The notes under the pieces are model-generated. The model ran no database searches. It was not told where the DNA came from and was given only the letters and a program-made list of their open reading frames with translations. Shown in pieces: positions 31,321 to 54,229 of a stretch of DNA of 64,000 bases. Source of the stretch: Allokutzneria sp. A3M-2-11 16 (GTDB taxonomy: Bacteria > Actinomycetota > Actinomycetes > Mycobacteriales > Pseudonocardiaceae); NCBI RefSeq assembly GCF_024213555.1, contig NZ_JANAVO010000001.1, forward strand, positions 2,604,001 to 2,668,000, written 5' to 3'. The position numbers were made by a program, and so were the translations under genes. How positions within the stretch are numbered: the first letter of the stretch is position 1; each line of letters starts with the position of its first letter.

Positions 31321-31345
31321 CTTGTATGAAATAGGCTTTGACCAT
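31290..31345. other. Left prophage attachment site (region)
   Basis: Host coding sequence of the oxidoreductase is recognisable up to about 31315, and the integrase ATG is at 31344. Serine integrases recombine within a few tens of bases of their gene, so the crossover core must lie here. The exact core of a few bases cannot be fixed without the other end. Confidence 0.7.
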
Positions 31346-35678: not shown

Positions 35679-36125
35679 ATGTCCCGCTCGAAGGCCAACC
35701 CTTCTGGCAACCCGCGTTCTGCGGATGTGACCGCGCCGCCCGTGCATGGTGGTCGCGCTCCCCGTGTCCCTGCGTCGCTTGGCTCTGTGGGCCGTGATGT
35801 GTGGCGGGCGGTGTGGGCGGCTGGTGCCGGTGTGTACAACCCGGCATCGGACAGGTTCGTGATCACGCGGTACGCGGAGTTGCACGACCGCCGGGCGGAG
35901 TTGCTGGCGGAGATCGACGCGGACGGGCTGACGACGGTGGGCTCCATGGGTCAGCCGGTGATGCACCCGGCGTTGCGCTTCGTGGAGTCGACGGAGAAGG
36001 AACTCCGCGCCATTGAGACGACCCTCGGTCTGAACTTGGAGTCGCGGCTCCGTCTGGGGCTTGCCGCGTCCGGCATCACGGAGCGCTCGCTCGCGGATCT
36101 GTTGGGAGACCTGGACGACGACTGA
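35679..36125 (+). CDS. Terminase small subunit (P27 family)
   Basis: A 148-residue DNA-packaging protein. ATG 35679 follows GAAGGGAGG. The core is PASLGSVGRDVWRAVWAAGAGVYNPASDRFVITRYAELHDRRAELL, the shape of P27-type small terminases, with VMHPALRFVESTEKELRAIETTLGLNLESRLRLGL as the oligomerisation end. It recognises phage DNA ends and loads the large subunit encoded next. Confidence 0.88.
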   Translation: MSRSKANPSGNPRSADVTAPPVHGGRAPRVPASLGSVGRDVWRAVWAAGAGVYNPASDRFVITRYAELHDRRAELLAEIDADGLTTVGSMGQPVMHPALRFVESTEKELRAIETTLGLNLESRLRLGLAASGITERSLADLLGDLDDD

Positions 36126-36146
36126 CGAAAGCGGGGGTGGTGTGAA

Positions 36147-37610
36147 CTGCGCACCGAGGGCCGCCGTGTCCGGAAGTTCGTCCAGCACCTCACCCTAGGT
36201 GGCAGCTATCTCGGTCAGCGGTTCCTTTTGCTTGCGTGGCAACGGGAAGTCATTGACGCGATTTACGCGCTGACGTCTGATGGGGAGCGTCGGCACCGTA
36301 CGGCGGTCCTGGGGATCGCGCGGAAGAACGGAAAAACTCAGTTGGCTGCGGCGCTTGCGCTGTATCACCTGTGCGCCGATCCGCGCGACTCCGCGCCCGA
36401 AGTCGTGTGTGCCGCGAACACGCGCGAACAGGCGCGGATCTTGTTCCGGGAAGCCGCGCGCATGGTGCGGATGTCGCCGCTGCTGGCGAAAATCTGCACG
36501 GTCCATCGGGACCGGATCACCTGTCACGCCACGGGTGGCGTCTTCGTGACCGTCTCGGCGGACGCGGGTCTACAGCAAGGTCTTAACCCGTCGTTCGTCG
36601 TGATGGACGAGTACGCCCAAGCGAAGAACTCCGACCTGTTCGACGCGCTGACGCTAGGTTCCGCGCAGCGCAGATCACCGCTGTTCCTTGTGATCAGCAC
36701 CGCCGGTCCCTACCCGGATGGTCCGTTCGCGGAGCTGATCGACCACGGGAACCTGTGTGCCACAGGCGAAGTAGATGACACTTCGTTCTGGTCGCGATGG
36801 TATGGGGTTCGTCCGGGTATGACGGTGGATCACACTGACCCGGCGGTGTGGGAGCGCTGCAATCCGTCGTGGTCGATCATGAACAGGAAGGACTTCGAGT
36901 CCTCCGTAAAGCGCACGCCAGAGCCAAATTTCAGGATGTACAGGCTCAATGAGTTCATCCGGGGCGGCTCCGCGTGGCTGCCACACGGCGCGTGGAGCAA
37001 GCTCGCGCGCCCCGGAGAACTGTTCGCCCCGGGTGACGTGATCGTGGTCGGCGTGGATGCCGCGTGGCGCAACGATTCCACGGCCATCGTCGGCGTCCGC
37101 TTGAGGGATCTACACGTGCAGGTGTTGGGGCACTGGGAGGCTCCGCGCGGTGATCCGCATTGGCGGACGCCGATTCATGACGTGATGGAGCGCGTCCGTG
37201 ACGTGTGCCGGACGTACTCCGTTCGGGAAGTCGCGGCGGACCCGGCGTGGTTCTCCGTGCAAGCGCAGATGCTCAGCGATGAGGGCTTGCCGATCGTGGA
37301 GTTCCCGAACTCGGTGGTGCGCATGGTGCCCGCGACGCACGCTGCTTACACGTCCATTGTGGATGGTCTGGTGACGCACTCCGGCCAGCCGGAGCTAGCG
37401 CGCCACATCGGCAACGCGGTGCTGAAAACCGACTCGCGTGGTGAGCGGATCACCAAGGAATCCGCGACCAGCCGCCGACACATTGACTTGGCGGTCGCGT
37501 TCGTAATGGCGCTCTATCGCGCGTACCTACACCGCGAAGAGCGACCCGTAGACGGGTTCCTGCTCAATGGCGACCCGTGGAACGACATCGAAAACGACGA
37601 CACGTGGTGA
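36147..37610 (+). CDS. Terminase large subunit, probable CTG start
   Basis: A packaging ATPase-nuclease of about 487 residues. The ATPase part has the modified Walker A GIARKNGKTQLAAAL and Walker B FVVMDEYAQ; the RNase H-like nuclease has aspartates in VGVDAAWRND, VAADPAWF and HIDLAVAFVMAL. The family N-terminus (GRRVRKFV then LTLGGSYLGQRF) lies upstream of the first standard start codon, TTG 36228. In that upstream stretch, bounded by the small-subunit stop, the only possible start is CTG 36147, preceded by GGGGGTGG. If TTG 36228 were used the protein would lose 27 conserved residues. Confidence 0.9.
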   Translation: MRTEGRRVRKFVQHLTLGGSYLGQRFLLLAWQREVIDAIYALTSDGERRHRTAVLGIARKNGKTQLAAALALYHLCADPRDSAPEVVCAANTREQARILFREAARMVRMSPLLAKICTVHRDRITCHATGGVFVTVSADAGLQQGLNPSFVVMDEYAQAKNSDLFDALTLGSAQRRSPLFLVISTAGPYPDGPFAELIDHGNLCATGEVDDTSFWSRWYGVRPGMTVDHTDPAVWERCNPSWSIMNRKDFESSVKRTPEPNFRMYRLNEFIRGGSAWLPHGAWSKLARPGELFAPGDVIVVGVDAAWRNDSTAIVGVRLRDLHVQVLGHWEAPRGDPHWRTPIHDVMERVRDVCRTYSVREVAADPAWFSVQAQMLSDEGLPIVEFPNSVVRMVPATHAAYTSIVDGLVTHSGQPELARHIGNAVLKTDSRGERITKESATSRRHIDLAVAFVMALYRAYLHREERPVDGFLLNGDPWNDIENDDTW

Positions 37611-37617
37611 ACAGGGG

Positions 37618-37869
37618 GTGTGGTTGGAGGAGCGCACGCCCGGGAAACTTCGGGCTTTCGCTGACAGGGCAACGAAGACGGCCGCCACGGCGGCACTCGC
37701 GGTCTGGGCCTCGATCACAGCGAGCCGCACGGAGCTGATCGCGCTCGCGGGCGGCTGGCAGGTCTCGGAGGGGGCCGCGACCGTGCATCCGGCGGGCGGC
37801 CCGCTCGTGCGCGGGGTGCTGCTGATCGTGCTCGCGGTGTGCATCGCACGATCACGGGCGGTGGGCTGA
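37618..37869 (+). CDS. Small membrane-associated phage protein
   Basis: An 83-residue protein between terminase and portal. A basic lead (RTPGKLRAFADRATKTAATA) is followed by two hydrophobic stretches (LAVWASITASRTELIALAGG and VRGVLLIVLAVCIARS). The start is GTG 37618 or TTG 37624, both next to AGGGGG. The stop overlaps the portal ATG (TGATG). No family recognised. Confidence 0.65.
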   Translation: MWLEERTPGKLRAFADRATKTAATAALAVWASITASRTELIALAGGWQVSEGAATVHPAGGPLVRGVLLIVLAVCIARSRAVG

Positions 37870-39191
37870 TGGGGTTCCTGGACTTCCTCGCTGCCCCGGT
37901 CGAAACCCGGTCGGCAACCGCGATTGATCCGGCGGAGGCAACGACCAACGCCGAGCTTGGCGGAGCTGAGCCCGCACTTGCGGCGAAGGCGCTCACACCG
38001 CGCGATGCCCTTGCGGTGTCGGCGGTCTACGCGTGCGTGCGGCTGCTGTCGGACACGATCGCTACCACGCCCGTGGGGTTGTTCAAGCGCACGACAACGG
38101 GGACACGGGAGCCGTTGGATCGCCCATCGTGGCTGACGAAGCCGAATCCGGACACACGGTGGATTGAGTTCGTGGCCACCGTGATGACCAGCCTTTTGTT
38201 GGAGGGCAACGCCTACATTCTGGTGACCCGCGCGGGCGCGGAGATCCTGGCCCTGGACGTCATCCCCGTCTCAGCCGTGACGCCGAAGTACCTCAAACGC
38301 GGCAAAGGCCGACGTGAGCTGATCTATGAGCTGTCGCTGACCGGTGAGGACGGGGCACAGGAAGTCGTCGGCGCTCTCTCCCGTGAAGATGTGTTGCACA
38401 TCAAGGGAATGCCACTCACGGGGAGCCTGACGGGCGTGAGCCCGCTGGATGCCGCACGGCGCACCATCGGCCTTTCCCTTGCCGCACAGGAGTTCGGAGC
38501 AGAGTTCTTCGAGAACGGCGCGACACCGGGAGCTGTGATCTCCGTTCCCGGCACGATGACCCCGGCCGGTCTGCGGGCGGCACGGCAGACGTGGCGCGCG
38601 ATCCACGGCGGAGCCGGGAACCGGCATGGGCTCGCGATCCTCACCGAAGATGCGAAGTTTCAGAAGGTCACGATCTCCCCGGATGAGGCGCAGTTCCTGG
38701 AGACCAGGGCGTTTCAGATTCCGGACATCGCGCGCCTGTACGGGGTGCCGCCGCACCTGATCGCGGACGCCTCCGGCTCCACGTCGTGGGGTTCCGGCTT
38801 GTCCGAGCAAAACACGGCGTTCGTCCAGTTCGCCGTTCGCGCATGGGCGGAGCGTTTGGAGGAAGGGCTCACCGCGCTTCTCGGCGATGACGCCGTGAGC
38901 GCGGGCGAGTTCGTCCGGTTCAACCTGGACGCGCTTGCGCGTGGGGCGCTTGCGGAGCGCTTGGAGTCCTACCGGACCGGCATCCAAAACGGGATCTACG
39001 CCCGCGACGAAGTGCGCGCGCTGGAGGATCTTCCGCCGGACCCTTCCGGGCTGGGCGGGTTCCTGATGGTGCCGACGAACCTCGCGATCCTCACACCCGA
39101 TGGACCGATGGCGCTCACCGCGTCCAGCGACCCGTCTGGGGATACCGACGACACCACCCCGGACGGCGGGGACGAGACGGAGGCTGTTTGA
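37869..39191 (+). CDS. Portal protein (HK97 family)
   Basis: A 440-residue phage portal. Motifs include ALAVSAVYACVRLLSDTIATTPVGLF at the start of the clip/stem region, LLLEGNAYI, DVLHIKGMPLTGSLTGVSPL, and RLYGVPPHLIADASGSTSWGSGLSEQN, which are characteristic of HK97-type portals. ATG 37869 overlaps the previous stop. The last 30 residues are acidic and flexible. It forms the dodecameric DNA gate at one capsid vertex. Confidence 0.94.
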   Translation: MGFLDFLAAPVETRSATAIDPAEATTNAELGGAEPALAAKALTPRDALAVSAVYACVRLLSDTIATTPVGLFKRTTTGTREPLDRPSWLTKPNPDTRWIEFVATVMTSLLLEGNAYILVTRAGAEILALDVIPVSAVTPKYLKRGKGRRELIYELSLTGEDGAQEVVGALSREDVLHIKGMPLTGSLTGVSPLDAARRTIGLSLAAQEFGAEFFENGATPGAVISVPGTMTPAGLRAARQTWRAIHGGAGNRHGLAILTEDAKFQKVTISPDEAQFLETRAFQIPDIARLYGVPPHLIADASGSTSWGSGLSEQNTAFVQFAVRAWAERLEEGLTALLGDDAVSAGEFVRFNLDALARGALAERLESYRTGIQNGIYARDEVRALEDLPPDPSGLGGFLMVPTNLAILTPDGPMALTASSDPSGDTDDTTPDGGDETEAV

Positions 39192-40915
39192 GCGCCGAAC
39201 GGCGCGATCTCCACGGCGCGGTCGAACTCCGCGCCCTAGAAGGAAAAACCATCATCCGGGGCTATGCCTACGTGTTCAACCGGCTCTCACAAGATCTCGG
39301 CGGGTTCCGGGAACGGATCGACCCCGGAGCGGGCCGCGCGGACATGGAGCACGGCGACCTGGTGGCGACGTTCAACCACGACTTCGGCAAACCGCTCGGG
39401 CGCACCGGGTACGGGCTGCGGACCGGCCTAGATGACGTCGGCGGCTGGTATGAGATCGACCTCCCGGATACTACGGCGGGCCGTGACGTCGCGGACCTGA
39501 TCGAGCGCCGCATCATCTCCGGCTCGTCCTTCAGGTTCCGCCTGGGCGACTCGGACGCGGACCAGGAATGGACCCGCGACGACGCGACCGGCGAACTCAT
39601 CCGCACCCTGCGGGACTTCCGCGTTACTGAGCTGGGACCGGTGACCACACCGGCCTATCCGGACACCACGGCGGCCCTGCGGTCAATTCCCGTTGCACTG
39701 CAACAGAATTCCACGGCGTCAGGCCGTGCTGACGGAGAAGGAGACACACTGACGGTCACCACGGCACCCACCACGGCGACGGAGGAGCGCGCCCACGCGG
39801 AGCATGCTCTCCAGGCGGTGGCGGACGACCAGCGCGCGGAGATGGAGACGCGCATCCTTGCGCGCCTGGACGAGCTGGACGCCCGCATCGCGGGTCAGGA
39901 GGCGGAGGAGCGCGCCAGGGAGACTCGGGATGCGGTGCTCGCGCTGTTGGACGAGCACAACGTGATTCCGATGCAGCGCCCCGGCTCCGATGACAACCGC
40001 GCTCTTCGATCGCTGCGTGAAGGTGGGGCGACGGAGTTCCGCGCGATGATGGGCGTCACCGTGGACGCGGCGAACAAGCAGGCAGGCAAGGCTACGCCGC
40101 TGCGGTCGCTGTACTCCACGTTGCTTCAGCTCATCGGGGAGCGCTCGTATGTGATTGCGGCCGGTGCCCGGGTGCTTCAGACGACCAGCGGGGAGGCTAT
40201 CGACTTCCCCCGGGTGCGTCCGGTTCGGCCGACCGTGAAGACGAACGAGGGTGCGCCGCTGCCGGAGAACTACCCGGCAACCGACACGGTCCCGCTGGGT
40301 GTGGAGAAGTACGGCTACGTCTCCCACGTCTCGGTGGAACTGGTCCAGGACGACGCCGTGGACCTGGTGGACTTCCTCGCGGCCGACGCCGCGCCGAACC
40401 TCGCGGACCAGATGGGCCACGACTTCACCGCCGCGCTGCTGAACCCGACCACGGGCATCCTGCCGGAGCTGCGGACCACGATCACGGGCACCAACATCAA
40501 GGACGCCCAGATCACCGACGCCGTCATTGACACGTATTACTCGTTGCCGACGTTCGCGGCCCGGCGGGCGACGTGGATCACCGGCCGGAAGTCGATCGCG
40601 CGGTTGCGCAAGCTCAAGGACAACGACGGCACGTACCTGTTGAAGTCCATTTCGGACGGCGGTGTGCTCGTGCTGATGGGTCAGCCGCTGGAGCTTGACC
40701 CGGCGTTCTCCGGTGCGAACGAGCACCACCTTGCGCTCTCCGACCTGAGCGGCTTCACGGTCAGGTACGCGGGACCGCTCCGCGTCGCGCGGTCCACCGA
40801 AGTGAAGTTCATCGAGGACTTGGTGTCGTTCAAGTTCGTTCAGCGGGCGGGCGGCGCGCTGATCGACACCACGGGATCGGCGCTGCTGACGCTGCCGTCT
40901 CCTCCGGCCCCGTGA
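39188..40915 (+). CDS. Fused prohead protease and HK97-fold major capsid protein
   Basis: A 575-residue fusion. Residues about 1-170 are the prohead protease: FNHDFGKPLGR with the catalytic histidine and ISGSSFRFRL with the serine. A helical scaffold-like stretch (about 200-275) has AEHALQAVADDQRAEMETRI. The HK97 capsid domain follows (PLRSLYSTLLQLIGERSYVI, EAIDFPRVRPV, LVQDDAVDLVDFLAADAAP, LVLMGQPLELDPAF). TTG 39188 overlaps the portal stop (TTGA). In many phages these are two genes; here one polypeptide must cut itself. A hairpin follows the gene. Confidence 0.94.
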   Translation: MSAERRDLHGAVELRALEGKTIIRGYAYVFNRLSQDLGGFRERIDPGAGRADMEHGDLVATFNHDFGKPLGRTGYGLRTGLDDVGGWYEIDLPDTTAGRDVADLIERRIISGSSFRFRLGDSDADQEWTRDDATGELIRTLRDFRVTELGPVTTPAYPDTTAALRSIPVALQQNSTASGRADGEGDTLTVTTAPTTATEERAHAEHALQAVADDQRAEMETRILARLDELDARIAGQEAEERARETRDAVLALLDEHNVIPMQRPGSDDNRALRSLREGGATEFRAMMGVTVDAANKQAGKATPLRSLYSTLLQLIGERSYVIAAGARVLQTTSGEAIDFPRVRPVRPTVKTNEGAPLPENYPATDTVPLGVEKYGYVSHVSVELVQDDAVDLVDFLAADAAPNLADQMGHDFTAALLNPTTGILPELRTTITGTNIKDAQITDAVIDTYYSLPTFAARRATWITGRKSIARLRKLKDNDGTYLLKSISDGGVLVLMGQPLELDPAFSGANEHHLALSDLSGFTVRYAGPLRVARSTEVKFIEDLVSFKFVQRAGGALIDTTGSALLTLPSPPAP

Positions 40916-40920
40916 TCCGC

Positions 40921-40957
40921 GCACGGCCACCCTGACGACCGGTTGGGGTGGCCGTGC
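40921..40957 (+). terminator. Hairpin after the capsid gene
   Basis: GCACGGCCACC (40921-40931) pairs with GGTGGCCGTGC (40947-40957). It lies 6 bp after the capsid stop and lacks a long T run, so it may attenuate or stabilise the capsid message rather than stop it. Confidence 0.7.
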
Positions 40958-40975
40958 CCCTTGCAGTGAAAGGGG

Positions 40976-41344
40976 ATGCACCTGGACTTGTACGCGACGC
41001 TGCCGGAGCTGCGCCGCCTGGACGGACTCGGCGACGCCACGTTGTTCCCCGACTCCGACCTGATCGACGGCCGCGCCTTCGCCGTGGAGAAGGTGCAGGA
41101 CTACACGGGGATGCGTTGGGGTGCGACGAATCCGCCGCCTGTCTCGATCAGGTGGGCGGTGCGCACGCTAGCCCGGCAGTACCTGACCGATCTCCACGCG
41201 CGGCTCCCGGACCGTGCTACCTCCCTGGTGAGCGAGTTCGGACAGACCAACTTGGCCCAAGCGGGCGGCGTGTGGCGGCCGACCAGTCTCCCGGAGGTCA
41301 ACGCGGTCTTGAACGCCTACCGCGAACGCGCACCATTCGGCTGA
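40976..41344 (+). CDS. Head-tail connector (gp6-like)
   Basis: A 122-residue protein with ATG 40976 after AAAGGGG. The lead MHLDLYATLPELRR, the DSDLIDGRAFAVEKVQDYTGMRW helix and the two-helix core WAVRTLARQYLTDLHARL are typical of gp6/gp15-like head completion proteins. Position directly after the capsid fits. It should ring the portal. Confidence 0.75.
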   Translation: MHLDLYATLPELRRLDGLGDATLFPDSDLIDGRAFAVEKVQDYTGMRWGATNPPPVSIRWAVRTLARQYLTDLHARLPDRATSLVSEFGQTNLAQAGGVWRPTSLPEVNAVLNAYRERAPFG

Positions 41345-41355
41345 CAGGAGGCGGA

Positions 41356-41796
41356 GTGCACATCGTTTTCCTGACCAAGCAAGCCATTCACGCCGCGCTT
41401 CGCGCGAGGCTGTCCGGTTCCGGTGTGTTGGTCGCGTGGGCTGACCCGGCGGACAAGGCGCGGCGGCGGTCGGTGTGGTTCACCGAGACCGTGGAGCCGG
41501 ACGTGGAGCCGACAGGCATGGTGCCCGGTCGCCGCAAACCCTCCGTTCTCACGGCGGATGTCACCATCCGCGCCATCTGCGTGGCCCCCGGTGACCCGGT
41601 CCACGCCGAACGCGGCGTGTGGGAGCTGCGCGACCAGGTCGACGCGGCAGTGATGGAGGAGTTCGACCCGGGCACCGTCCCCGGGCTCATCGACGTGCGC
41701 CCCGTGCGCGCCGTGGTCACAGGCGGGGAGTCCTTCCTTGGGACCACGGCGCAGTGTGACTACACGGTGCGGGTCCGCGCACGCCTACTGACCTAG
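41356..41796 (+). CDS. Tail terminator/head-tail joining protein
   Basis: A 146-residue protein with GTG 41356 after AGGAGGCGGA. The alpha/beta pattern (TKQAIHAALRARLSGSGVLVAW, VTIRAICVAPGDPVHAERG, a long helix, then TTAQCDYTVRVRARL) matches tail terminator proteins that cap the tail tube. It stands just before the major tail gene, the usual place for that function. Confidence 0.72.
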   Translation: MHIVFLTKQAIHAALRARLSGSGVLVAWADPADKARRRSVWFTETVEPDVEPTGMVPGRRKPSVLTADVTIRAICVAPGDPVHAERGVWELRDQVDAAVMEEFDPGTVPGLIDVRPVRAVVTGGESFLGTTAQCDYTVRVRARLLT

Positions 41797-41808
41797 GAAG
41801 GGGATCGT

Positions 41809-42855
41809 TTGGCGTTGGACGCCGCTATCTCGATCAACTCGGAGACCGCCTACGGGGTCGCCGCGACCGGGAGCACCGAGGGCTACGAAGGCCAGGGCGA
41901 CAGTTGGAAGGCCAGCCGCGAGTTCGTGGAATCCCTCGGTTTCCGTGCGGGCATGGAGACCGTGCGTGCGGACCGCCGCCGCATCGTCGACATGGGTGGG
42001 GAAGGTGAGATCGAGTGCTCCGTACTCGACTCCGGAGCTGGGTCGCTTCTGCGTGCCGTGTTCGATTCGCTCACGGTCGCGACGGGGGCGGCCGGTGCGC
42101 CCTCCACGTTGTCCTATCGCACGGCGACGACCGCCGGGTCACCGTCGTACACGGTGCAGATGATCCGGCCTCTCTCCGATGGCGGCCGTGTCGCTTACCG
42201 TCACGTCGGCGCGGTGGTCACCGAATGGGAGTTTGAACAGGAAGTCGAGAAAGCCTTGACGCTCAAGGCTTCCTTTGACTTTCAGACCGTGAACCACACG
42301 GGCGTGGAGGCGGAGTTCCTGCCGATCACGTACCCGGCGGAGTCCATTGCCTATGACTGGACTAGGGGAGCGGTCTACCTCACTCGGAGTGGCGCTGAAA
42401 CCCTTGTGCCCGTGGGCAAGTGGTCATTGAAGGGCGCCCGTGGTTTGAAGACCGATCGCCGTGCTGTGCGCGCGAACCCGTTGAAGCGTCAGCCGAAACG
42501 GGCAGAGTTGCCGGAGTATGAAGGGGAGATCGAAGCGGAGTTCGAGTCCGCCACGCTCCCGCTGTACGAGGACTTCGTAGGCGGTGCGATCGTGGGACTG
42601 CGCATCTCCTACACGGGGGTGACGAAGTCCGGCAACGGGACTACGGCGAAGCTGGACATCGTCGTTCCCGCGATCCAGTTCACCGGCGAGTCGCCGGAAG
42701 CCTCGCTCGATGACCTCACGTCGATGACGCTGCCGTTCCGCGCGCTCGATCCGGGCCGACCGGGCACGGTGTCGCTGACCTACGTGGAGCCGTCCGGAGT
42801 GGACCCGACGAAGCCCCCGACACCACCCGGCGACGCCGTCAAGGCGAAGAAGTAG
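41809..42855 (+). CDS. Major tail protein
   Basis: A 348-residue beta-rich protein with TTG 41809 after AGGAAGGGG. It starts AISINSETAYGVAATGSTEG and contains ESLGFRAGMETVRADRR, VTEWEFEQEVEKALTLKASFDF and PEYEGEIEAEFESATLPLYEDF, the pattern of tail-tube monomers of siphoviruses. The C-terminal 20 residues are proline-rich. It polymerises into the tail tube around the tape measure. Confidence 0.85.
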   Translation: MALDAAISINSETAYGVAATGSTEGYEGQGDSWKASREFVESLGFRAGMETVRADRRRIVDMGGEGEIECSVLDSGAGSLLRAVFDSLTVATGAAGAPSTLSYRTATTAGSPSYTVQMIRPLSDGGRVAYRHVGAVVTEWEFEQEVEKALTLKASFDFQTVNHTGVEAEFLPITYPAESIAYDWTRGAVYLTRSGAETLVPVGKWSLKGARGLKTDRRAVRANPLKRQPKRAELPEYEGEIEAEFESATLPLYEDFVGGAIVGLRISYTGVTKSGNGTTAKLDIVVPAIQFTGESPEASLDDLTSMTLPFRALDPGRPGTVSLTYVEPSGVDPTKPPTPPGDAVKAKK

Positions 42856-42870
42856 CCGTGTCGGCTGACG

Positions 42871-42889
42871 TTGGTGTGCACACCACAAC
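42871..42889. promoter_or_regulatory. Copy of the TTGGTGTGCACACCACAA palindrome
   Basis: GGTGTGCACACC is a perfect 12-bp palindrome, flanked by TT and ACAAC. It sits in the 46-bp gap after the major tail gene. It belongs to the five-site family described under 51595-51622. Confidence 0.65.
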
Positions 42890-42901
42890 CCGGGACGCCG
42901 C

Positions 42902-43294
42902 ATGGGGTTGAGGTTCCAAGTCCGCATCGACGGACACAAGGATCTTCGGACCGCGATCCGCAAGACGCAGAGCAAGGACATCGCGAAGGGGCTGAGGGAG
43001 GCGCACAAGGCCACGGCCGCCGTGGTGGTGCCTCCGGCCCGCCGGGATGCTCCGCGTCGCTCTGGCGCGCTGTCGGCGTCGGTGAAGCCGTCTTCAAGCG
43101 TGAAGGGCGCGATCGTGCGCGCGGGCTCCGCCCGGGTTCGGTATGCCGGGCCGATTCACTTCGGCTGGCCCGCGCGGGGCATCGAGCCGCGCTTCTTCCT
43201 CTTCGATGCGGCCGGAGAAACCAAGGACGCGTACTCAGCGGTCTTCCGTGAACGCATGAACGCCTTGGTCCACAAGAACATCAACAGCAACTAG
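42902..43294 (+). CDS. HK97 gp10-like tail-joining protein
   Basis: A 130-residue protein. RFQVRIDGHKDLRTAIRKTQ and the long helix with VVVPPARRDAPRRSGALSASV, followed by VRYAGPIHFGWPARGIEPRFFLF, are the pattern of HK97 gp10-family proteins. ATG 42902 has no strong Shine-Dalgarno. The place after the major tail gene rather than before it is a small departure from the usual order. Confidence 0.82.
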   Translation: MGLRFQVRIDGHKDLRTAIRKTQSKDIAKGLREAHKATAAVVVPPARRDAPRRSGALSASVKPSSSVKGAIVRAGSARVRYAGPIHFGWPARGIEPRFFLFDAAGETKDAYSAVFRERMNALVHKNINSN

Positions 43295-43301
43295 GAGACG
43301 C

Positions 43302-43598
43302 TTGAGCGAGGCTGTGACCATCTCCATGGACGACTTGTCCGTGGGCGAGATCGAGCGCATCGAAGACCTGATCGATGCCTCGATCGACTCCATCGGCGCT
43401 CCGGGAGCCCGCAAGGGGAAGTTCCTGCGCGCCGTGGCCTACGTGATCGCGCTGCGCGACAACCCGGAGTTCCGCTACGAGGACTCCTACGCGCTGCGCA
43501 TCTCGTTGGGGGACAAGGAAAACCCTCCCGTGGCGGCCGACGCCGTGGCCGCGCCCAATCGGGCCGCGCGTCGCGCGCGGTCGCCAAAGCCCGCCTAA
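43302..43598 (+). CDS. Tail assembly chaperone, short form (gpG-like)
   Basis: A 98-residue protein with TTG 43302 after TAGGAGACGC. It has an acidic helical body (SMDDLSVGEIERIEDLIDAS and FLRAVAYVIALRDNPEF) and ends shortly before the tape measure gene, as gpG-type chaperones do. Its last part overlaps a second frame that continues to 43753. The two forms together keep the tape measure soluble during tail assembly. Confidence 0.85.
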   Translation: MSEAVTISMDDLSVGEIERIEDLIDASIDSIGAPGARKGKFLRAVAYVIALRDNPEFRYEDSYALRISLGDKENPPVAADAVAAPNRAARRARSPKPA

Positions 43599-43753
43599 TC
43601 GCGCACTTCCCCGGGCTCACCTGGGCTGACGTTCAGGCGCTGCGGCTGGACGAGTACCGGGCGCTGATCAAAGCCATGAACGCCGACAACCGCGCCCGTC
43701 AGCGGGGCGGGTCGTCGGCGGGCGGTGTGCGGCGTGAGCCGGTCATGACCTAG
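43580..43753 (+). CDS. Frameshift extension of the tail chaperone (gpT-like)
   Basis: In the -1 frame the sequence VAKARLIAHFPGLTWADVQA, LRLDEYRALIKAMN runs to TAG 43753 and has no start of its own. It matches the T domain of lambda-like gpGT chaperones. The -1 frame is open back to about 43505, so slippage could occur at GGGGGAC near 43509, at AAGGAAAAC, or at GCCAAAG near 43584; none is a perfect X-XXY-YYZ heptamer. The product would be a fusion of both frames. Confidence 0.78.
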   Translation, partial: VAKARLIAHFPGLTWADVQALRLDEYRALIKAMNADNRARQRGGSSAGGVRREPVMT

Positions 43754-43766
43754 GAGAGGGGGACGC

Positions 43767-46121
43767 CTGGCGAAGCCGATCAAGGTCACGATCCTGGGTG
43801 ATGTCAAGGATCTGACCGAGAAGCTTGGCGCGGGAGAGAAGGGCGTCGCGGGGTTCGCGTCCCGGGTGGGTCAGTCCGCCCGGGACGTGGCGTCCAGCGC
43901 CGCGCAGTTCGCCGCCGTGGGAGTCGCGGCCGGAGGTATTGGCGGTCTGCTGACGGAGTCCTTGGACCGTGCGCAGATCTCGGCGAAGCTCGGGGCTCAG
44001 CTTGGCGCTACGGCCGATGAGGCACGCCGCTATGGCGAAGCCGCCGGGCGCCTCTACGCCGATGGCTACGGCGAGTCCTTCGCGCAGGTATCTTCCGCGA
44101 TCGCGGCCGTGACGTCCACGCTGGGCAAGCTCGGGTCACAAGCTGAGCTGGAAGCGGTGTCCCGCAAGGCTTTGGATCTCGCGTCCGTGTTCGACGTGGA
44201 CGTGAACCGGGCCGTGGCGTCATCGGGAGTGCTGCTCAAGTACGGGCTCGCCAGGGACGCCACAGAGGCGTTCGACCTGTTGACGCGCGGACTCCAGGGC
44301 GTCCCGGCGGCCGTCCGCGACGACTTGCTAGAGGCCGTGGATGAGTACTCCGTGTTCTTCCACGAGATCGGTTTCAGCGGAGCGGAAGCCTTCGGCGTGC
44401 TCAAGCAGGCTGCGTCCGGCGGCAAGATCCAGCTGGACAAGGCAGCGGATGCGGTCAAGGAGTTCCACATTCGCTCCACGGACATGACCAAGGGGCCAGT
44501 GGAGGCGTACCAAGCGTTGGGCCTCAACGCTGAGGACATGGCACGCAAGGTCCATGCGGGCGGGACGACCGCGCGGGACGCGTTCCAAACGGTGGTCAAC
44601 GGCGTGCTCGCGATGAAAGACCCTGTCGCACAAAGCAATACCGCTGTCGCGTTGTTCGGAACCCAGTTCGAAGACCTCGGGAACTTGGACGCGCTCGCGG
44701 CGCTGCGACCGGCGGTCAACGGCTTGACCGAGGTAGCGGGAGCGGCGGACCGGCTTGGAACGTCGTTGCACGACAACGCTTCCGCGCGCCTGACACAGTT
44801 CGGCCGTGCTCTGCAAGACGGGTTCGTCACTGTAGTTGGCGGCTACGTGCTGCCGGTCGCGGAGCGCGTGGCCGCGTGGTTGTCGACCACGTTCGGCCCG
44901 GCTCTGTCCGTGGTCGGCTCGATCCTGACCACGGTGGTGATTTCGGCGCTGTCCGCATTCGCCGGGTGGATCTCGGAAAACAGCTCGTGGCTGTCCATTG
45001 TGGCCGGTGTGATCCTGACGGTATTCCTCCCATCGCTGGTATCCATGGGAATCGCGTCGCTGACCGCTCGCGCTCAGGTCGTCGGGACCTTCCTCGCGAT
45101 GCGTTTGGAAGCCATCAAGGCGGCCCTGGCGCAGTCCTACGCGCTCGCGCAGACCGTCACCGGCTGGGTGTCCCTGGGCGTCGCCGCCGTACTGCACGGG
45201 GCTCGTGTGGCGGGCGCCTGGTTGATGGTCCAGGGCCAAGCGCTGACCTCCGGTGCCTCGATGGCCGCGAGCATGGCGGCAACCGTGGCGTCCACTGTGG
45301 CCGGATGGGTCACGATAGCGGCGCAATCCCTGTTGCACGCCGCGCGCATGGCTACCGCCTGGGTGATCGCGCTCGGGCCGGTTGGCTGGGTCACGGCGGC
45401 CGTCGTCGGCCTGGTCGCGCTGATCGTGTCCAACTGGGAAACGGTGTCGCAGTGGACGTCCGATATCTGGAACTCCGTCGTGAGCTTCCTCTCCGGAGCG
45501 TGGGACGGCATCGTTGACTCAGTTCGGACCGGTGTCCGCACGGCCCTGGGGCTGCTCGGTGATCTCCTGTCATGGCTCGCTGGGCTCCCGGGCCGCCTGC
45601 TCGGGGCACTTGGTGATGCGGGCCGGTGGTTGCTCAACGTTGGCCGCGACATCCTTCGTGGTCTCTGGGATGGGCTCGTGGACATGGGCACGTGGCTGAA
45701 GAACAAGATTGTCGGCTTCTTCTCCTCCCTCGTGCCGGATTGGGTGAAGAGCGCTCTCGGTATCCGCTCGCCATCGCGGGTGATGGCTGACATTGGGCGG
45801 TGGCTCCCGCCGGGTCTGGCGGTCGGCATCGAACGTACGGCCGGTGTCGCGGTCGGGGCGGCGCGCTCGCTCGCGGCGGATGTCGTGGGAGCGGTACGCG
45901 GTACGGACACGCTGACGCCCGCGCTCGCTTTCGCGAGCCAACCGCCACGCGTCCCGCCGTACCTGCCGGTCCGTGCCGGCCGTTTCCCGGAAGTTCGAAA
46001 CCCGTTGCAAGACAACGGGTTTCCCGTCAAGCAGGATGTGACGGTGAACGTGACGACGCCCGCCGACCCGCACGAAATCGGCCGCGAAGTGGCGTGGGCG
46101 TTGCGCAACCACGGGAGGTGA
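43767..46121 (+). CDS. Tape measure protein, CTG start
   Basis: A 784-residue protein that sets tail length. N-terminal helices (DVKDLTEKLGAGEKGVAGFA, SRVGQSARDVASSAA) lead to long helical and hydrophobic stretches, with many Trp/Gly segments near residues 400-620 (WVIALGPVGWVTAAVVGLVA) and the typical SALGIRSPSRVMADIGRWLP near the end. The natural start is CTG 43767, after GGAGAGGGGG; the frame upstream reaches a TGA at 43746 without any ATG, GTG or TTG, and the first standard start is GTG 43866, 33 residues inside the conserved lead. Confidence 0.92.
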   Translation: MAKPIKVTILGDVKDLTEKLGAGEKGVAGFASRVGQSARDVASSAAQFAAVGVAAGGIGGLLTESLDRAQISAKLGAQLGATADEARRYGEAAGRLYADGYGESFAQVSSAIAAVTSTLGKLGSQAELEAVSRKALDLASVFDVDVNRAVASSGVLLKYGLARDATEAFDLLTRGLQGVPAAVRDDLLEAVDEYSVFFHEIGFSGAEAFGVLKQAASGGKIQLDKAADAVKEFHIRSTDMTKGPVEAYQALGLNAEDMARKVHAGGTTARDAFQTVVNGVLAMKDPVAQSNTAVALFGTQFEDLGNLDALAALRPAVNGLTEVAGAADRLGTSLHDNASARLTQFGRALQDGFVTVVGGYVLPVAERVAAWLSTTFGPALSVVGSILTTVVISALSAFAGWISENSSWLSIVAGVILTVFLPSLVSMGIASLTARAQVVGTFLAMRLEAIKAALAQSYALAQTVTGWVSLGVAAVLHGARVAGAWLMVQGQALTSGASMAASMAATVASTVAGWVTIAAQSLLHAARMATAWVIALGPVGWVTAAVVGLVALIVSNWETVSQWTSDIWNSVVSFLSGAWDGIVDSVRTGVRTALGLLGDLLSWLAGLPGRLLGALGDAGRWLLNVGRDILRGLWDGLVDMGTWLKNKIVGFFSSLVPDWVKSALGIRSPSRVMADIGRWLPPGLAVGIERTAGVAVGAARSLAADVVGAVRGTDTLTPALAFASQPPRVPPYLPVRAGRFPEVRNPLQDNGFPVKQDVTVNVTTPADPHEIGREVAWALRNHGR

Positions 46122-46125
46122 GTAG

Positions 46126-47028
46126 CTGGAAACCGTTGCGCTGCAACCACTCGCGCACGAGTGGACGGCTCGCTTCCGGGGACTGGACATCGGTTCCCCG
46201 GACGGGCCGACCGCGTTCACCGAAGTTGCTGGGCTGTTGGACGCCCCGGATGTCCGCACGGCCGACCGCCGCCGCTACGGACGCCACGGCGACACCAGCG
46301 GCACGGACTACCTCGGACCGCGCACCATCACCGTGTCCGTGGAAGTCAGCGCCCGCGATGACCGCGAGTTCTCCGCGACGATGGACACGGTCGCTCGGGC
46401 ATTCGCGCCCGGAACGGACACAGCGCCGTTGGTGTTCAGGTTCCCCGGCGTAGCCGGAAGCGGAACCCGTTACGTGGTCGGGAAAACCCGGAAACGTGCG
46501 GCTCCGATCACGTGGAGCCTGGTCCACCACCACGCCGTGGTGACAGCGGAGATCTACTGCCCATCACCGTGGATTCACGACGTGCTCACGCAGACCGGGC
46601 AAGCTCGACTGCCCACGGCGGGGCGGCCCGGCGGAGGCGGAATCCGCTTCCCCACCCGGTTCCCGGTGCGAACCGGCGCGGCCCCGGCGGCGGAAGTCAT
46701 CCGCGCCACCAACCACGGCACGACGCCCGCACCGATGCGACTCCGCTTCCGAGGGCCGATCACCGACCCGCGCGTTACCAACCTGCGGACGGGGGAGTTC
46801 CTGGAGCTGCGGTACACGCTGCTCGCCGGACAGTGGTTGGACGTCGACACTGACACTCGCGAAGTCCTGTTGAACGGAAGCGCTCCGCGTTGGCTGACCC
46901 CGGGGACCCGGAACACCTGGCTTCACCTCGCGCCCGGCACAGCCGAGTTCGGCTTGTCCGGCTACCGCATCCCCGGTGAACCCGGGGAGCCGGACCTCAC
47001 CGCCTGGTGGTCGTCCACCTGGATCTGA
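46126..47028 (+). CDS. Distal tail (Dit-like) protein, CTG start
   Basis: A 300-residue minor tail protein. Its start is CTG 46126, directly after an in-frame TAG and with GGAGGTGAG upstream. The N-terminal part LEWT-like HEWTARFRGLDIGSPDGPTA and the beta-rich middle (GPRTITVSVEVSARDD, RFPGVAGSGTRYVVGKTRKR) are typical of Dit-family hubs. ITWSLVHHHAVVTAEIYCPSP and the C-terminal beta domain with WLDVDTDTREVLLNG fit as well. It joins the tail tube to the baseplate. Confidence 0.82.
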   Translation: METVALQPLAHEWTARFRGLDIGSPDGPTAFTEVAGLLDAPDVRTADRRRYGRHGDTSGTDYLGPRTITVSVEVSARDDREFSATMDTVARAFAPGTDTAPLVFRFPGVAGSGTRYVVGKTRKRAAPITWSLVHHHAVVTAEIYCPSPWIHDVLTQTGQARLPTAGRPGGGGIRFPTRFPVRTGAAPAAEVIRATNHGTTPAPMRLRFRGPITDPRVTNLRTGEFLELRYTLLAGQWLDVDTDTREVLLNGSAPRWLTPGTRNTWLHLAPGTAEFGLSGYRIPGEPGEPDLTAWWSSTWI

Positions 47029-47047
47029 TCGAGATGGAGGTAGACCT

Positions 47048-48124
47048 CTGGCACCTGTGGAGATGCCGCTCCCGCCCATGCTCGTGGACGGCACCGAGTA
47101 CCACGCCGACCCGCTCCGCCGCGTCCTGTCCGGGCTGCTTGCCGACACCCCCGGCGTGCTCGGGATCGGCGACTTTGCCGTCACGGTCGGCTCGGACTAC
47201 GCCGCGACGGTCAGCGGGGGACGGGCCGCGCTTCCCCCTCCGGCCGCGCAGCACACGGGCGTGTACCTGACGGAGGCGACCACGTCGACCACGCTGCCGA
47301 TCACCCCACCGCACGCCACCCGAGACCGCATTGACCTGCTCGTGGCCTACGCGGTCCCGCCCGCGACGGCCACCGACACCGGGCGCTGGTTCCTGGAGAT
47401 CAAGACCGGGACCCCGGAGCCCGAACCGAAACGCCCCGTCGTCTCCGGCGCGTTGCTGTTGCGCGAGTTCCGGGTGTTCGCCGAGTCCGCCGCACGGCCG
47501 GTCCAGTCGACCGATCTTCGGTTGAGCGAGGGACAACAGCTCATCTCCGGCGCCGTGCTCTATGGGCGCAGCCTGCCGACCCCGGTCCCGGGGCGGGTGT
47601 GGACCGACGCCGGGAACGGCGTCACCTACGCGCACTCCGGGAACGCGTGGGAACGGCTGACCGAACGCCGAACCTACGCCGTCGCGTTGGCGCGGCCCGG
47701 CGGATACACCGTTACCCACCAACAAGAAGCCACCTGGACACAGGCGCTGCGCGACCCGGACGGGATGTGGGGCGGCACCACCAACCCCACACGGGTGCGC
47801 GTTCCGGAGACCGGGATCTACGGGTACTCCGCGTCGTTCGCGGCGGAGCGCATCGGTACCGGCCAAGCGCAGATGTTCCGGACGGCCGCGCTGCTGTGCA
47901 AGTACAGCGCGGAAGTGGGTGGGAGCCGGGAAGCGATCGCAGGACAGGAAGGTGCGGGGTGGGCCGCGAACCCGGCGGGGCAATGGCAGTTCTGGGGCGT
48001 GTCCGGCGCGATCGAGGCGACGCGCGGTCAGTCACTCGGGATCATCACCGATACCGCGACGCCCGAGGGCGTGAAGATCGCGACCAACTTCCTGACCCGC
48101 TTCCTCGTGTGGAAAATCGCCTAG
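47048..48124 (+). CDS. Baseplate/tail fibre protein, probable CTG start
   Basis: A 358-residue protein. GGAGG at 47036-47040 stands seven bases before CTG 47048; GTG 47057 and ATG 47063 are alternatives. The N-terminal half has the pattern of actinophage receptor-binding proteins (YHADPLRRVLSGLLADTPG, TTLPITPPHATRDRIDLLVA). The C-terminal part (TTNPTRVRVPETGIYGYSAS onward) is a beta-sandwich that could bind a cell-surface sugar. It follows the Dit-like gene. Confidence 0.7.
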   Translation: MAPVEMPLPPMLVDGTEYHADPLRRVLSGLLADTPGVLGIGDFAVTVGSDYAATVSGGRAALPPPAAQHTGVYLTEATTSTTLPITPPHATRDRIDLLVAYAVPPATATDTGRWFLEIKTGTPEPEPKRPVVSGALLLREFRVFAESAARPVQSTDLRLSEGQQLISGAVLYGRSLPTPVPGRVWTDAGNGVTYAHSGNAWERLTERRTYAVALARPGGYTVTHQQEATWTQALRDPDGMWGGTTNPTRVRVPETGIYGYSASFAAERIGTGQAQMFRTAALLCKYSAEVGGSREAIAGQEGAGWAANPAGQWQFWGVSGAIEATRGQSLGIITDTATPEGVKIATNFLTRFLVWKIA

Positions 48125-48149
48125 CAGGAAGGGGAATCCGGCGTACCGC

Positions 48150-49211
48150 GTGCTGTTTCAGGACGTGCTTTCGGGCTACGTCCACGGCGAACTCCCGTTC
48201 TCCGACCTGAGCTACACCACCGTGTTGAACGCCCCGGGTTCCGCGAAGCTCACCACCGACTTGGACCCCGGCGTCTCGCACGTCACCGCACAGAGCCTCG
48301 TTCCCGGAGCGGCGACCGCGCTCTACATCGAACGCCACGGCCGGATCGTGTGGTCCGGGCTGCTCTGGGACGCCGCACCGGACTACACCACGAGCACGCT
48401 CACCCTGGAGTGCGAAGGCTGGCTGAGCTACTTCCGGCGACGACACATCCACACCAGCCGCCAATACATCCACTGGGATCAAGCCGACATCGCCCGAGAC
48501 CTGTTGCAGCACGCGGGAACCTACGGACCGAGCTCGCGGCTGGGCATGATCGAGTACGGGCGCGAGATGACCGGCGTCGCCCGCGACCGCACCTACAAGG
48601 AGTCCGAGCGGAAGTCCATCGGCGAAGCCGTGGAGCAGCTCGCTGACGTCATCGACGGCTTCGACTTCGCCTTCCGCGCCGAGTGGTCCGGGCCAGACGC
48701 GGACGAACTCGCAGTGCGCTTCGTCATCGACTACCCGCGCACCGGACGCGACCGCGATATGTCGCTTGTGGACGGACAGAACTGCTCGATCCTCTCCGCG
48801 ACGGTAGGTGGAAAGAGTCTTTCCACGTTCGCACTCGCCTCCGGTGCGGGAGACGGAGACGAACAGCTCTGGACGACCAGTGACCGGCCGTCGCTTGTGC
48901 ACCCGCGCTTGGAGGAAGTCGCTTCGTACTCCGATGTGAAGGAACTTCCGACGCTGCAAGGCAAAGCCGACCGGATCGTTCGGCAAGGCTCCCATCCTGT
49001 GGTGCTGCCCAAGATCGAGCTGTACCCCGACGCCCTTCCCGGCCTGGACTCGATCGCGGTCGGGGACCAGGTCGCGGTAACCGGCGGGTACGGGCTCGTC
49101 CTCATCGCCGGGACGTGGCGGGTGACCGAGATCGCGGTGTCCGTAGACGACGCCGGAGCCGATGACGCCACGCTCACCGTCGCTCCGATGGAGGTCTTCG
49201 CCGATGTCTAA
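48150..49211 (+). CDS. Tail-associated (Tal-like) protein
   Basis: A 353-residue minor tail protein starting near MLFQDVLSGYVHGELPFSD. It contains RHGRIVWSGLLWDAAPDYTT, LECEGWLSYFRRRHIH and FDFAFRAEWSGPDADE, the pattern seen in siphovirus baseplate hub proteins of actinophages. GTG 48150 is the only standard start, but the strong GGAAGGGG at 48127-48134 lies 15 bases upstream, too far; no ATG, GTG, TTG or CTG is better placed. The start is therefore uncertain. Confidence 0.75.
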   Translation: MLFQDVLSGYVHGELPFSDLSYTTVLNAPGSAKLTTDLDPGVSHVTAQSLVPGAATALYIERHGRIVWSGLLWDAAPDYTTSTLTLECEGWLSYFRRRHIHTSRQYIHWDQADIARDLLQHAGTYGPSSRLGMIEYGREMTGVARDRTYKESERKSIGEAVEQLADVIDGFDFAFRAEWSGPDADELAVRFVIDYPRTGRDRDMSLVDGQNCSILSATVGGKSLSTFALASGAGDGDEQLWTTSDRPSLVHPRLEEVASYSDVKELPTLQGKADRIVRQGSHPVVLPKIELYPDALPGLDSIAVGDQVAVTGGYGLVLIAGTWRVTEIAVSVDDAGADDATLTVAPMEVFADV

Positions 49212-50013
49212 CCCCTCGCTACCGCCGTCGCTGGGAGCGAACTTCCGGGAACTCGACGAGCGGATCTCCGCCCTGGAACGCGGAGACCGTTCCTTGTCCT
49301 ACCGGCAAGCACTGTCCACCAACGACAGTGAGGAAACCCGCACCTTCTACATGGACCGCGATGGCGGGACCTCCCGCCCGACCACACACGTCGGTTACGC
49401 CGCATCATTGGTGAACCCTCGGTACCCGGTGTTGGTCGCGCGGTTCGTGGTGACGCTGTTCAACGGAGCGGGGGCGATGGTCCACCTTCGCTCCGACATG
49501 GCCGGAGCATCCCGGGAAACCCGCCGCTGGAACCTGACCGGCGGCCCCGGGGACTACCGACACCACGTATTCGAAATCGCGTGGCTACACGGAATGCCGG
49601 TCGACCAGTGGTCCGACACCTCCGCACAGCAGGTGATCCGGCGCGGACAGATCCTGTTCAACACGACCGTGACAGCCGAGAAGATCATCAACGCTCGTGA
49701 TGACGACTTCTCCGCCGATGCTCAACGCAAGGGTTTCACCGGGCAGCAAACAGAGTTCATGGTCGCCTGGCTGCGCACGACCGACAACCGGTACCCGGTC
49801 TACTTCAAAGAGCCGGAGTACGTGTTCCTGGCTCCCCGCAACGCTTTCCCGACCGCGTCGATAGAGGGCACGTTGATTCCCGGCTCTGATGTCGGCGGAT
49901 ACCCGGCGACCGAGGCGCCCAGCGCCCGCAGTTCTGACACCGCGCATCCTCCCGTGTGGACGGACAGTCCGGGTGAATGGCCTACGCCGACGCGGGATTT
50001 CGGCTACCAGTAA
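49204..50013 (+). CDS. Minor tail protein of unknown role
   Basis: A 269-residue protein with ATG 49204 overlapping the end of the previous gene by 8 bp. After a short coiled coil (LGANFRELDERISALERGDR) it is beta-rich (VARFVVTLFNGAGAMVHLRS, YRHHVFEIAWLHGMPVDQWS). The tail end is proline- and serine-rich. Its position before the lysis genes suits a tail spike or baseplate part. No family recognised. Confidence 0.7.
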   Translation: MSNPSLPPSLGANFRELDERISALERGDRSLSYRQALSTNDSEETRTFYMDRDGGTSRPTTHVGYAASLVNPRYPVLVARFVVTLFNGAGAMVHLRSDMAGASRETRRWNLTGGPGDYRHHVFEIAWLHGMPVDQWSDTSAQQVIRRGQILFNTTVTAEKIINARDDDFSADAQRKGFTGQQTEFMVAWLRTTDNRYPVYFKEPEYVFLAPRNAFPTASIEGTLIPGSDVGGYPATEAPSARSSDTAHPPVWTDSPGEWPTPTRDFGYQ

Positions 50014-50025
50014 GGAGATCCATAT

Positions 50026-50328
50026 CTGAGTGACGCACTCTGGATTGCGTTGATCGCGCTCGCGGGAACCGTGGTGACCTCCGGCCCGCTCTACCTGTCC
50101 CTGCGCAAGTCACGCAAAGCCGTTGCCGCACAGAGCGATGCGATCCCCGGCGCGGTGTCGGGCGCGATCGACACCGCCCTGGCGCCGATGACCGCGCGCT
50201 TGGACGAGATCAGCCGCGATATAGCGCACATCCGGGAACGCGTCGCGGTGCACGACGACCGTTGGACTTGGTCGCCACCTCCACGACTTGCCGAAAGGCG
50301 AGATAGCGAAAGGAGTTCCGATAGCTGA
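50026..50328 (+). CDS. Membrane protein of the lysis region, CTG start
   Basis: A 100-residue protein starting at CTG 50026, eight bases after AAGGAG (50012-50017). One membrane helix (LWIALIALAGTVVTSGPLYL) is followed by a charged helix (TARLDEISRDIAHIRERVAV). TTG 50050 would cut away half the helix. The size and single helix suit a holin-like or lysis-control protein. It overlaps the amidase gene at its 3' end. Confidence 0.68.
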   Translation: MSDALWIALIALAGTVVTSGPLYLSLRKSRKAVAAQSDAIPGAVSGAIDTALAPMTARLDEISRDIAHIRERVAVHDDRWTWSPPPRLAERRDSERSSDS

Positions 50329-51271
50329 CGGATACCTGACATGGCTTCCCGATGTCCTTCGAGACGCGGGCTTGGACGTGGTTGAGATCGACGGGTGGCG
50401 CACTCGTGGACACGGCCGCTTCAAGAACGTGTGGGGCGTGATGGGCCACCACACCGCCGGACCCGCGAGCGGCGACTACCCCTCTCTCGGGACCGTGGTC
50501 CATGGGCGGAAGAACCTTGCCGGTCCGCTCGCGCAGCTCGGACTAGGCCGGTCCGGGAAGGTCTTCGTGATCGCGGCCGGTGTCGCCTGGCACGCGGGCA
50601 AAGGCGTCTACCCGGGCATACCCCGTGACAACGGGAACTTCCATCTGGTCGGCATCGAGGCGGAGTCGACCGGCTACGGCGACTGGACGTCGGCCCAGCA
50701 CGACGCCTACCCGCGCATGGTCGCCGCGATTCTGCGACATCTCGGCTTGAACGCCTCCCGGTTCATCGGGCACGGCGAATACAGCTCGATTGGGAAGTGG
50801 GACCCGGGCAACTGGCCCGGGGGAATGAACGGATTCCGTTCCCGCACACAGGAAATCCTTGAAGGAGACGATATGCCCTCTGTCGAAGAAGTCGCCGAAG
50901 CCGTCTGGGCTCGCGTGCTCATCCACCCGCACGACCCGTCCATTGCTCACCCCGCGTGGGTCTGGCACTGCCTGACCAACACCGCCGCCTGGCAGGCCGC
51001 CCAGTACCCCGAGGGAATGGAGCCCTCCGCCGTGGACGGCACCACCCCCGTGCGACGCATGGACTTCGCCCGCTTCGCCGAAGCCCACGGCTACGTGCTC
51101 AAGCAGGAAGTCGCCGGACTCCGCACCGCCGTGGACAAGCTCGCCGAAGCGGTCGGCACCAGCTCCGGGATCGACCCGGAAGAGCTGAAAGCCGCTGTGC
51201 GACAGGCAATGCAGGACTCACTCGTCCGCGTCATCGTCACCGGCAAGGAACCGTCCACCGAAACCCCTTGA
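50288..51271 (+). CDS. Endolysin, N-acetylmuramoyl-L-alanine amidase
   Basis: A phage lysin of up to 327 residues. The amidase_2/PGRP domain (about residues 15-195) has zinc ligands in VMGHHTAGPAS, FIGHGEYSS and GKWDPG, and the conserved HLVGIEAEST. It cuts the bond between N-acetylmuramic acid and L-alanine in the wall. The C-terminal 120 residues are helical and may bind the wall or the envelope. TTG 50288 gives the longest frame; AAAGGAG at 50309-50315 instead points to a start near 50321, where only ATA is available. The start is unresolved. Confidence 0.88.
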   Translation: MPKGEIAKGVPIADGYLTWLPDVLRDAGLDVVEIDGWRTRGHGRFKNVWGVMGHHTAGPASGDYPSLGTVVHGRKNLAGPLAQLGLGRSGKVFVIAAGVAWHAGKGVYPGIPRDNGNFHLVGIEAESTGYGDWTSAQHDAYPRMVAAILRHLGLNASRFIGHGEYSSIGKWDPGNWPGGMNGFRSRTQEILEGDDMPSVEEVAEAVWARVLIHPHDPSIAHPAWVWHCLTNTAAWQAAQYPEGMEPSAVDGTTPVRRMDFARFAEAHGYVLKQEVAGLRTAVDKLAEAVGTSSGIDPEELKAAVRQAMQDSLVRVIVTGKEPSTETP

Positions 51272-51351
51272 TACACAACGCTTTCCAGAATGCCGACCTC
51301 TAGTCGGCTGTTTCCATCCCCGTGAAATCACAACTCGAAGGAGTTCTTCCT

Positions 51352-54192: not shown

Positions 54193-54229
54193 CTCGCTCT
54201 TCCTTACATACCAACAGAAAGGTGCTCGT

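Follow-up and report, generated by a model that had tools for sequence, protein, structure and literature searches.

Can a bacteriophage begin its structural genes outside the three standard start codons ATG, GTG and TTG, and what would make such starts workable? The question is raised by a prophage in a 64,000-nt stretch of DNA, hereafter the window, from the 8.8 Mb assembly of Allokutzneria sp. A3M-2-11 16 (contig NZ_JANAVO010000001.1, positions 2,604,001 to 2,668,000), the one assembly in which the sequence was seen. A sequence-only reading had proposed that five genes of the late module of this prophage, which spans 35679-51585, begin with CTG behind a Shine-Dalgarno sequence (SD). Comparison of the window late genes with those of 13 relatives points to a prophage in which CTG or ATA opens at least four assembly and lysis genes, with six or more being probable; these codons and ATC are called near-cognate below. 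A start was regarded as forced when no standard codon lies between the upstream stop and two codons past the first conserved residue. The genes concerned are given here; designations such as L198, used further on, are locus labels of relatives and control loci.

36147-37610, + strand: terminase large subunit (TerL), CTG start; SD-like GGGGGTGG at 36133-36140, in-frame TGA at 36123, phrog_9 match (E 4e-107); forced.
39749-40915, + strand: major capsid protein, probable internal CTG start; SD GGAGAAGGAG at 39734-39743; not forced.
43767-46121, + strand: tail tape measure protein, CTG start; SD AGGAGAGGGGG at 43752-43762, in-frame TGA at 43746; forced.
46126-47028, + strand: distal tail protein (Dit), CTG start; SD GGGAGGTGA at 46113-46121, phrog_33/phrog_5577; forced.
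47048-48124, + strand: tail or baseplate protein named by its gp45 position, probable CTG start; SD GGAGGT at 47036-47041, no PHROG match.
48141-49211, + strand: minor tail protein, phrog_1885 (E 1e-54); SD AGGAAGGGG at 48126-48134 points to GCG 48141.
50026-50328, + strand: small protein at the gp48 position (by reading, a putative membrane protein), CTG start; SD AAGGAG at 50012-50017, TAA at 50011, no PHROG match; forced.
50321-51271, + strand: endolysin, probable ATA start; SD AAAGGAG at 50309-50315, overlapping the previous stop, phrog_880.

At 36147, 43767, 46126 and 50026 an in-frame stop lies no more than eight codons upstream with no standard codon in between (for Dit, the TAG at 46123-46125 is the codon immediately before the CTG), and none follows before conserved protein sequence is reached. 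The next standard codons, TTG 36228, GTG 43866, TTG 46237 and TTG 50050, would remove 27, 33, 37 and 8 residues from predicted N-termini that read (M)RTEGR for TerL, (M)AKPIK for the tape measure, (M)ETVALQPLAHEWTAR for Dit and (M)SDALW for the 50026 product. SD pairing at these codons reaches -2.2 to -6.4 kcal/mol, versus -8.2 to -16.2 kcal/mol at the four forced CTGs. All five CTGs of the sequence-only reading (these four and 47048) are in place behind an SD-like stretch, and the TGA at 43746 excludes an upstream start of the tape measure, as had been said. Each SD had also been called strong; at TerL this holds for the computed pairing, although the SD there is G-rich and not a classical GGAGG. 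The further claim that a usable standard start is lacking is borne out at the four forced genes and does not hold at 47048, which has an in-frame GTG three codons on (47057) and an ATG at 47063, with weak SD pairing at both. The CTG at 47048 is backed by its SD spacing and by exact alignment to the GTG start of L198.

To these five genes an SD with CTG at 39749 (capsid) and the ATA at 50321 (endolysin) were added. The capsid CTG lies inside a single continuous frame with the protease from 39188, and the aligned codon is GTG in L198, TTG in L040 and CTG in L037. For the endolysin, the earlier proposal that 50288 offers no standard start where the SD points was right, and the start was moved to ATA 50321; the alternative TTG at 50288 has an SD match of only 2 nt. 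Most homologous lysins have ATG one or two residues on, with beginnings such as MAYSLTW and MAHALTW one residue on (both by projected alignment).

Might the true starts be internal standard codons and the apparent N-termini remain untranslated? This is very improbable. Gene finders do rely on ATG, GTG and TTG (as stated in the available part of PMC5472188), and 47048 has its GTG three codons on. However, the excluded stretches, whose loss would leave the weakly paired internal codons, align as protein to relatives with an upstream standard start, and selection by codon position is seen in them. Between the CTG and the next standard codon, differences at codon positions 1/2/3 were 53/65/149 for TerL (11 relatives; pN/pS 0.32), 83/80/167 for the tape measure (10 relatives; pN/pS 0.44) and 91/91/142 for Dit (nine relatives; pN/pS 0.64). 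Because of this third-position excess and these pN/pS values, the stretches are seen to evolve as protein. Homologues lacking the N-terminal residues had been named as the finding that would speak against the CTGs; at the tape measure, TerL, Dit and 50026 the outcome favoured the CTGs, and the relatives' aligned starts support these codons well as real starts.

Which codons do the relatives carry at the same sites? The exactly aligned tape-measure codon is ATG in five relatives, GTG in five, ATA in one and ATC in one, with CTG in the window. CTG recurs at TerL in L009 and L040, both forced, and, by SD, in L036, and L034, L038 and L039 carry TTG there in the same sequence context as the CTG of L009 and L040. 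Dit of L036 starts with CTG, preceded by an 8-nt SD match; the aligned start of gene 50026 is ATG in L198 and L203 and GTG in L032; the lysin of L042 starts with ATA (by SD) and that of L043, from the same PHROG families, with GTG. Taken over the window and its relatives, 185 starts comprise GTG 78, ATG 50, TTG 35, CTG 16, ATA 3, ATC 2 and GCG 1, the 18 window entries being our own choices and not rule calls. Near-cognate starts account for 7 of 18 late genes in the window (chosen by hand) and, in the relatives alone, for 14 of 167 rule-called late starts, a set that includes weak cases (L043 TerL ATC, L039 g40976 CTG and L203 g41356 CTG). By gene, with the window counted, the rule gives 3/13 for the tape measure, 5/14 for TerL (one weak) and 2/12 for Dit, and only standard starts in L032 and L034. 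Starts are forced in 13 of 187 gene instances, 12 of them with CTG, ATA or ATC and one (48141 in the window) with none of these.

Before the two-codon tolerance there were 16 raw forced cases in 162, from which TerS of L032 (contig edge), g37624 of L038 and Dit of L037 (GTG one codon on) were set aside; the tolerance also leaves out the ATA homologue of 48141 in L037, and g37624, being too variable, was omitted from the start table and the SD comparison. Duplicate prophages, judged from matching sequence, were counted once (L005=L031=L036, L007=L033=L038=L046, L010=L035=L040 and similar). A CTG at the 49204 gene of L038 was likewise set aside, with an in-frame GTG just upstream.

The gene that carries the odd codon thus varies between relatives, which favours weak constraint and turnover over gene-specific tuning, that is, over weak starts selected because they limit how much of the low-copy tail, packaging and lysis proteins is made from a shared late mRNA. 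Such tuning, which the sequence-only reading had advanced as deliberate weak initiation to set protein ratios, seems to us unlikely. It would agree with the window, where the odd codons fall mostly on TerL, the tape measure, Dit, the tail tip and the lysin, all of which we take to be low-copy products, and with the major tail protein, which is never near-cognate (0/12, among 14 phages). Yet most relatives have ATG, GTG or TTG at these genes and bear the odd codon on others, the capsid, a high-copy protein, has CTG in two phages, and SD strength shows no trend.

Are such starts equally present in ordinary genes? A blind test was applied that flags a gene when a standard codon is reached only after a loss of 10 nats or more of coding signal. 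In the late modules of ten phages, counting the window prophage and nine relatives, it flagged 4 of 148 genes, with CTG at the window tape measure and at Dit of L036, and ATA at the tape measure of L037 and the lysin of L042, versus none of 757 host genes in 800 kb of one chromosome (Fisher p 0.0007). The ATC tape measure of L043 fell just short (9.7), and the window TerL scored 5.3. No gene was flagged among 74 in six Streptomyces phiC31-type phages. A survey of the tape measure covered 45 of the 46 loci L088-L133 (L117 was dropped for its cut flank, and two further matches were left out); three loci lacked a standard start, all three among the nine loci of the close clade. In 20 other prophage regions 9 of 374 genes were flagged, and no CTG, ATA, ATC or ATT was found among up to four best-SD codons per gene. 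As read from their translations, these nine would be seven second halves of tail-chaperone genes, likely made by programmed frameshift (in L178, L182, L184, L185, L186, L189 and L191), one transposase and one transporter fragment. Around other lysin or prophage loci, five stretches from the genome of the window and a same-genus genome yielded 2 flagged genes in 80, the L173 portal gene and the L175 gene described below.

Could the start codons simply be dead, in a prophage that is decaying? The prophage sits in the chromosome, and loss of function is common in chromosomal prophages. Judged from its reading frames, however, decay is unlikely, and we give it a very low probability. The 19 late frames read contain no internal stop. 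Nonsense mutation would be about ten times likelier than start loss if the starts were once ATG, and five losses with no nonsense then have a p of about 7e-6, indels not counted. Pairwise dN/dS is 0.09-0.46 for seven genes against two relatives (dS near saturation), and the same codon classes occur in other phages. Sequencing or assembly errors are hardly conceivable: the window does come from one assembly, but five or more separate errors would all have had to yield near-cognate codons at start sites, and to recur in other genomes.

How would ribosomes use these codons? Our preferred reading, which we hold to be reasonably probable, is that CTG and ATA represent real near-cognate initiation of the class repressed by the initiation factor IF3, which this clade tolerates and which shifts from gene to gene. 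All odd codons with an assigned start are a single mismatch away from AUG, in keeping with the ordinary initiator tRNA, which would read CTG and ATA as formyl-methionine at well-spaced SDs. In Streptomyces, IF3 represses non-standard starts, with infC beginning at ATC and sigR at GTC (according to the available part of PMC5472188). The host infC (L140, C2:143323-143577) seems to have the same ATC start, preceded by AGGAGG, so that initiation at a codon of this kind is probably within the capacity of host ribosomes, and host IF3 presumably discriminates. Being repressed by IF3, near-cognate codons would be expected to initiate below ATG, with an output that shifts with the IF3-to-ribosome ratio. 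The late operon is tightly packed and its translation probably coupled; high late transcription together with coupling to the preceding gene might possibly offset weak initiation. The start codon would be only weakly constrained in the clade, where TTG starts are frequent and CTG, ATA and ATC have appeared more than once, in different phages and at different genes, as near-neutral turnover would produce.

Start fidelity might instead be lowered late, by a phage product or a falling ratio of IF3 to ribosomes, and near-cognate late genes be switched on together. This we regard as quite improbable. All assigned odd codons do belong to the near-cognate class, the host infC appears to start with ATC, and the early region of the prophage shows no clear near-cognate case in a list of 12 called genes, whose starts were read without homologue comparison. 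Against this, the rule gives nothing but standard starts in L032 and L034, two phages that seem to manage without lowered fidelity, ATG, GTG or TTG persists at no fewer than ten late genes in the window, and no phage-encoded initiator tRNA or IF3 was found in the window and the relatives' records examined. The search for IF3 domains in the genome of the window and in five relatives' viral records (possibly fragments) returned only the host infC, the tRNA search of the window found none, and 21 relatives' loci gave no more than a tRNA-Trp in L006 and, in L043, a single ARAGORN hit without assigned type. The dedicated host or phage factor that the sequence-only reading had considered was thus not found. 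A translational late switch on top of the transcriptional one also appears doubtful; in it, part of the virion and lysis programme would run from codons that IF3 normally blocks, and the balance between IF3 and free ribosomes, or a phage factor loosening start selection late in infection, would control late synthesis.

Several observations weigh against the reading of CTG and ATA as IF3-repressed starts of this clade. The starts at 47048, 39749 and 50321 are not forced. At the 48141 gene, no standard or near-cognate codon was seen at SD distance. The sequence-only reading had said of its GTG at 48150, which sits 15 nt from the SD, that no standard start stands where the SD points; this is so, the SD pointing to GCG 48141, and no near-cognate codon stands there either. 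Its relatives have GTG, TTG, ATG, CTG (L198, L042) or ATA (L037), and one or more residues are kept before a conserved YRV. Compensation by the SD was not seen, near-cognate SDs being no stronger than those of standard starts (p 0.12 for the clade and 0.12 for the window), and behind SDs of at least 6 the relatives showed no excess of CTG (3 vs 7 in the control). In E. coli, CUG yields 0.86% of AUG (PMC11497404, available part), a figure that is puzzling, being hard to square with abundant virion proteins, and the available part of a mycobacterial study describes CTG as not enriched as a start behind the SD (PMC4633059). Host genes were tested in one genome, and odd starts were met outside the clade. 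A strict restriction to the clade is weakened by the portal gene of L173 (2729-4153, - strand; phrog_104, E 5e-134, matched from residue 5), which lies in another prophage on the same contig as the window: ATC follows AAGGAGGT there, and 39 codons pass without a standard one. In the same-genus genome, a gene of L175 (7464-8378, + strand; no PHROG match) has GTC where its SD AGAGGTGA would place the start, and more than 50 codons pass without a standard one, and an Amycolatopsis lysin (L157) has GTT where sister lysins have GTG or ATG. Window near-cognate SDs are stronger than host-gene SDs (p 0.0025), a comparison that is partly circular, some starts having been chosen by SD. CTG behind SDs of at least 6 numbered 8 vs 24 in a shifted control for the host, hence no enrichment, and 2 vs 1 for the window, a slight excess. 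The count of codons behind SDs does not by itself support CTG starts, and homology and coding-boundary tests were used instead.

To what extent are such starts already known? Among bacterial starts the share of CTG is about 0.024% (quoted in the available part of PMC11497404), and switches to CUG number 4 among 68,906 reconstructed ancestral starts (summed from counts in the available part of PMC5622118). Like infC and sigR, the window genes are actinobacterial genes that start outside ATG, GTG and TTG at the N-terminus, as judged from aligned starts and upstream stops, with the SD at normal spacing, and the host appears to share the ATC of infC. Unlike these single regulatory host genes, they form a phage structural block, mainly with CTG, and the odd codon is not conserved at the same gene among relatives. 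In the Bacteroides phage phiB124-14, CTG was proposed as the start of ORF10; in the available part of that report (PMC3338817) this is one predicted ORF, whereas the window has a group of such starts within a conserved module whose homologues can be aligned. In the open-access literature, covered through titles and abstract openings (subscription papers and bioRxiv lying mostly outside), no report of a set of CTG, ATA and ATC starts in phage structural genes was recognised. The class of mechanism is known; that a phage morphogenesis module should draw on it in such concentration is new as far as the search reached. With gene finders limited to ATG, GTG and TTG, virion proteins of such phages will come out shortened or be overlooked. 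A natural series is available in the clade (ATG, GTG, CTG, ATA and ATC at one tape-measure start) for studying the effect of the start codon in virion assembly and how far initiation fidelity can relax in actinobacteria.

To which group of phages does the prophage belong? On sequence grounds, its late module is a member of a phiC31-like prophage group of Pseudonocardiaceae. It matches phiC31 in 13 of 19 genes in the same order; the matching part opens with the small terminase, closes with the 48141 gene and includes related TerL, portal, capsid and tail genes. The lysin and holin were recognised through PHROG matches. The prophage also encodes a large serine recombinase (31338-32936; Pfam Resolvase/Recombinase) as integrase, a Gp3-like directionality factor (53915-54901), a D5/primase-like protein and DNA polymerase A. 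The window TerL shares 50-53% identity with the 16 best-matching Streptomyces phage records listed and 70-79% with six viral contigs. A profile scan of viral contigs recovered relatives with the tape measure; scans of viral contigs with Dit and with the 48141 protein did not find them, and a scan of genome contigs gave only two Amycolatopsis loci, both prophages already in the sample. Among known phages, the module is nearest to phiC31 and its Streptomyces relatives BT1, TG1, Vash, Heather and Shawty. In contrast to the window, the 120 annotated late starts of six such genomes (20 per genome) are ATG 60, GTG 57, TTG 3 and near-cognate 0, and the annotation has one gene for the protease and another for the capsid. 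In the window and seven close relatives the two form one frame (39188-40915 in the window) with an internal SD and start, and they lie apart in phiC31, L042 and L043; a protease-capsid fusion and a free capsid are possibly both made. The tail-chaperone gene at 43302-43595 seems to run on in another frame to 43753, like the annotated frameshift gene of phiC31.

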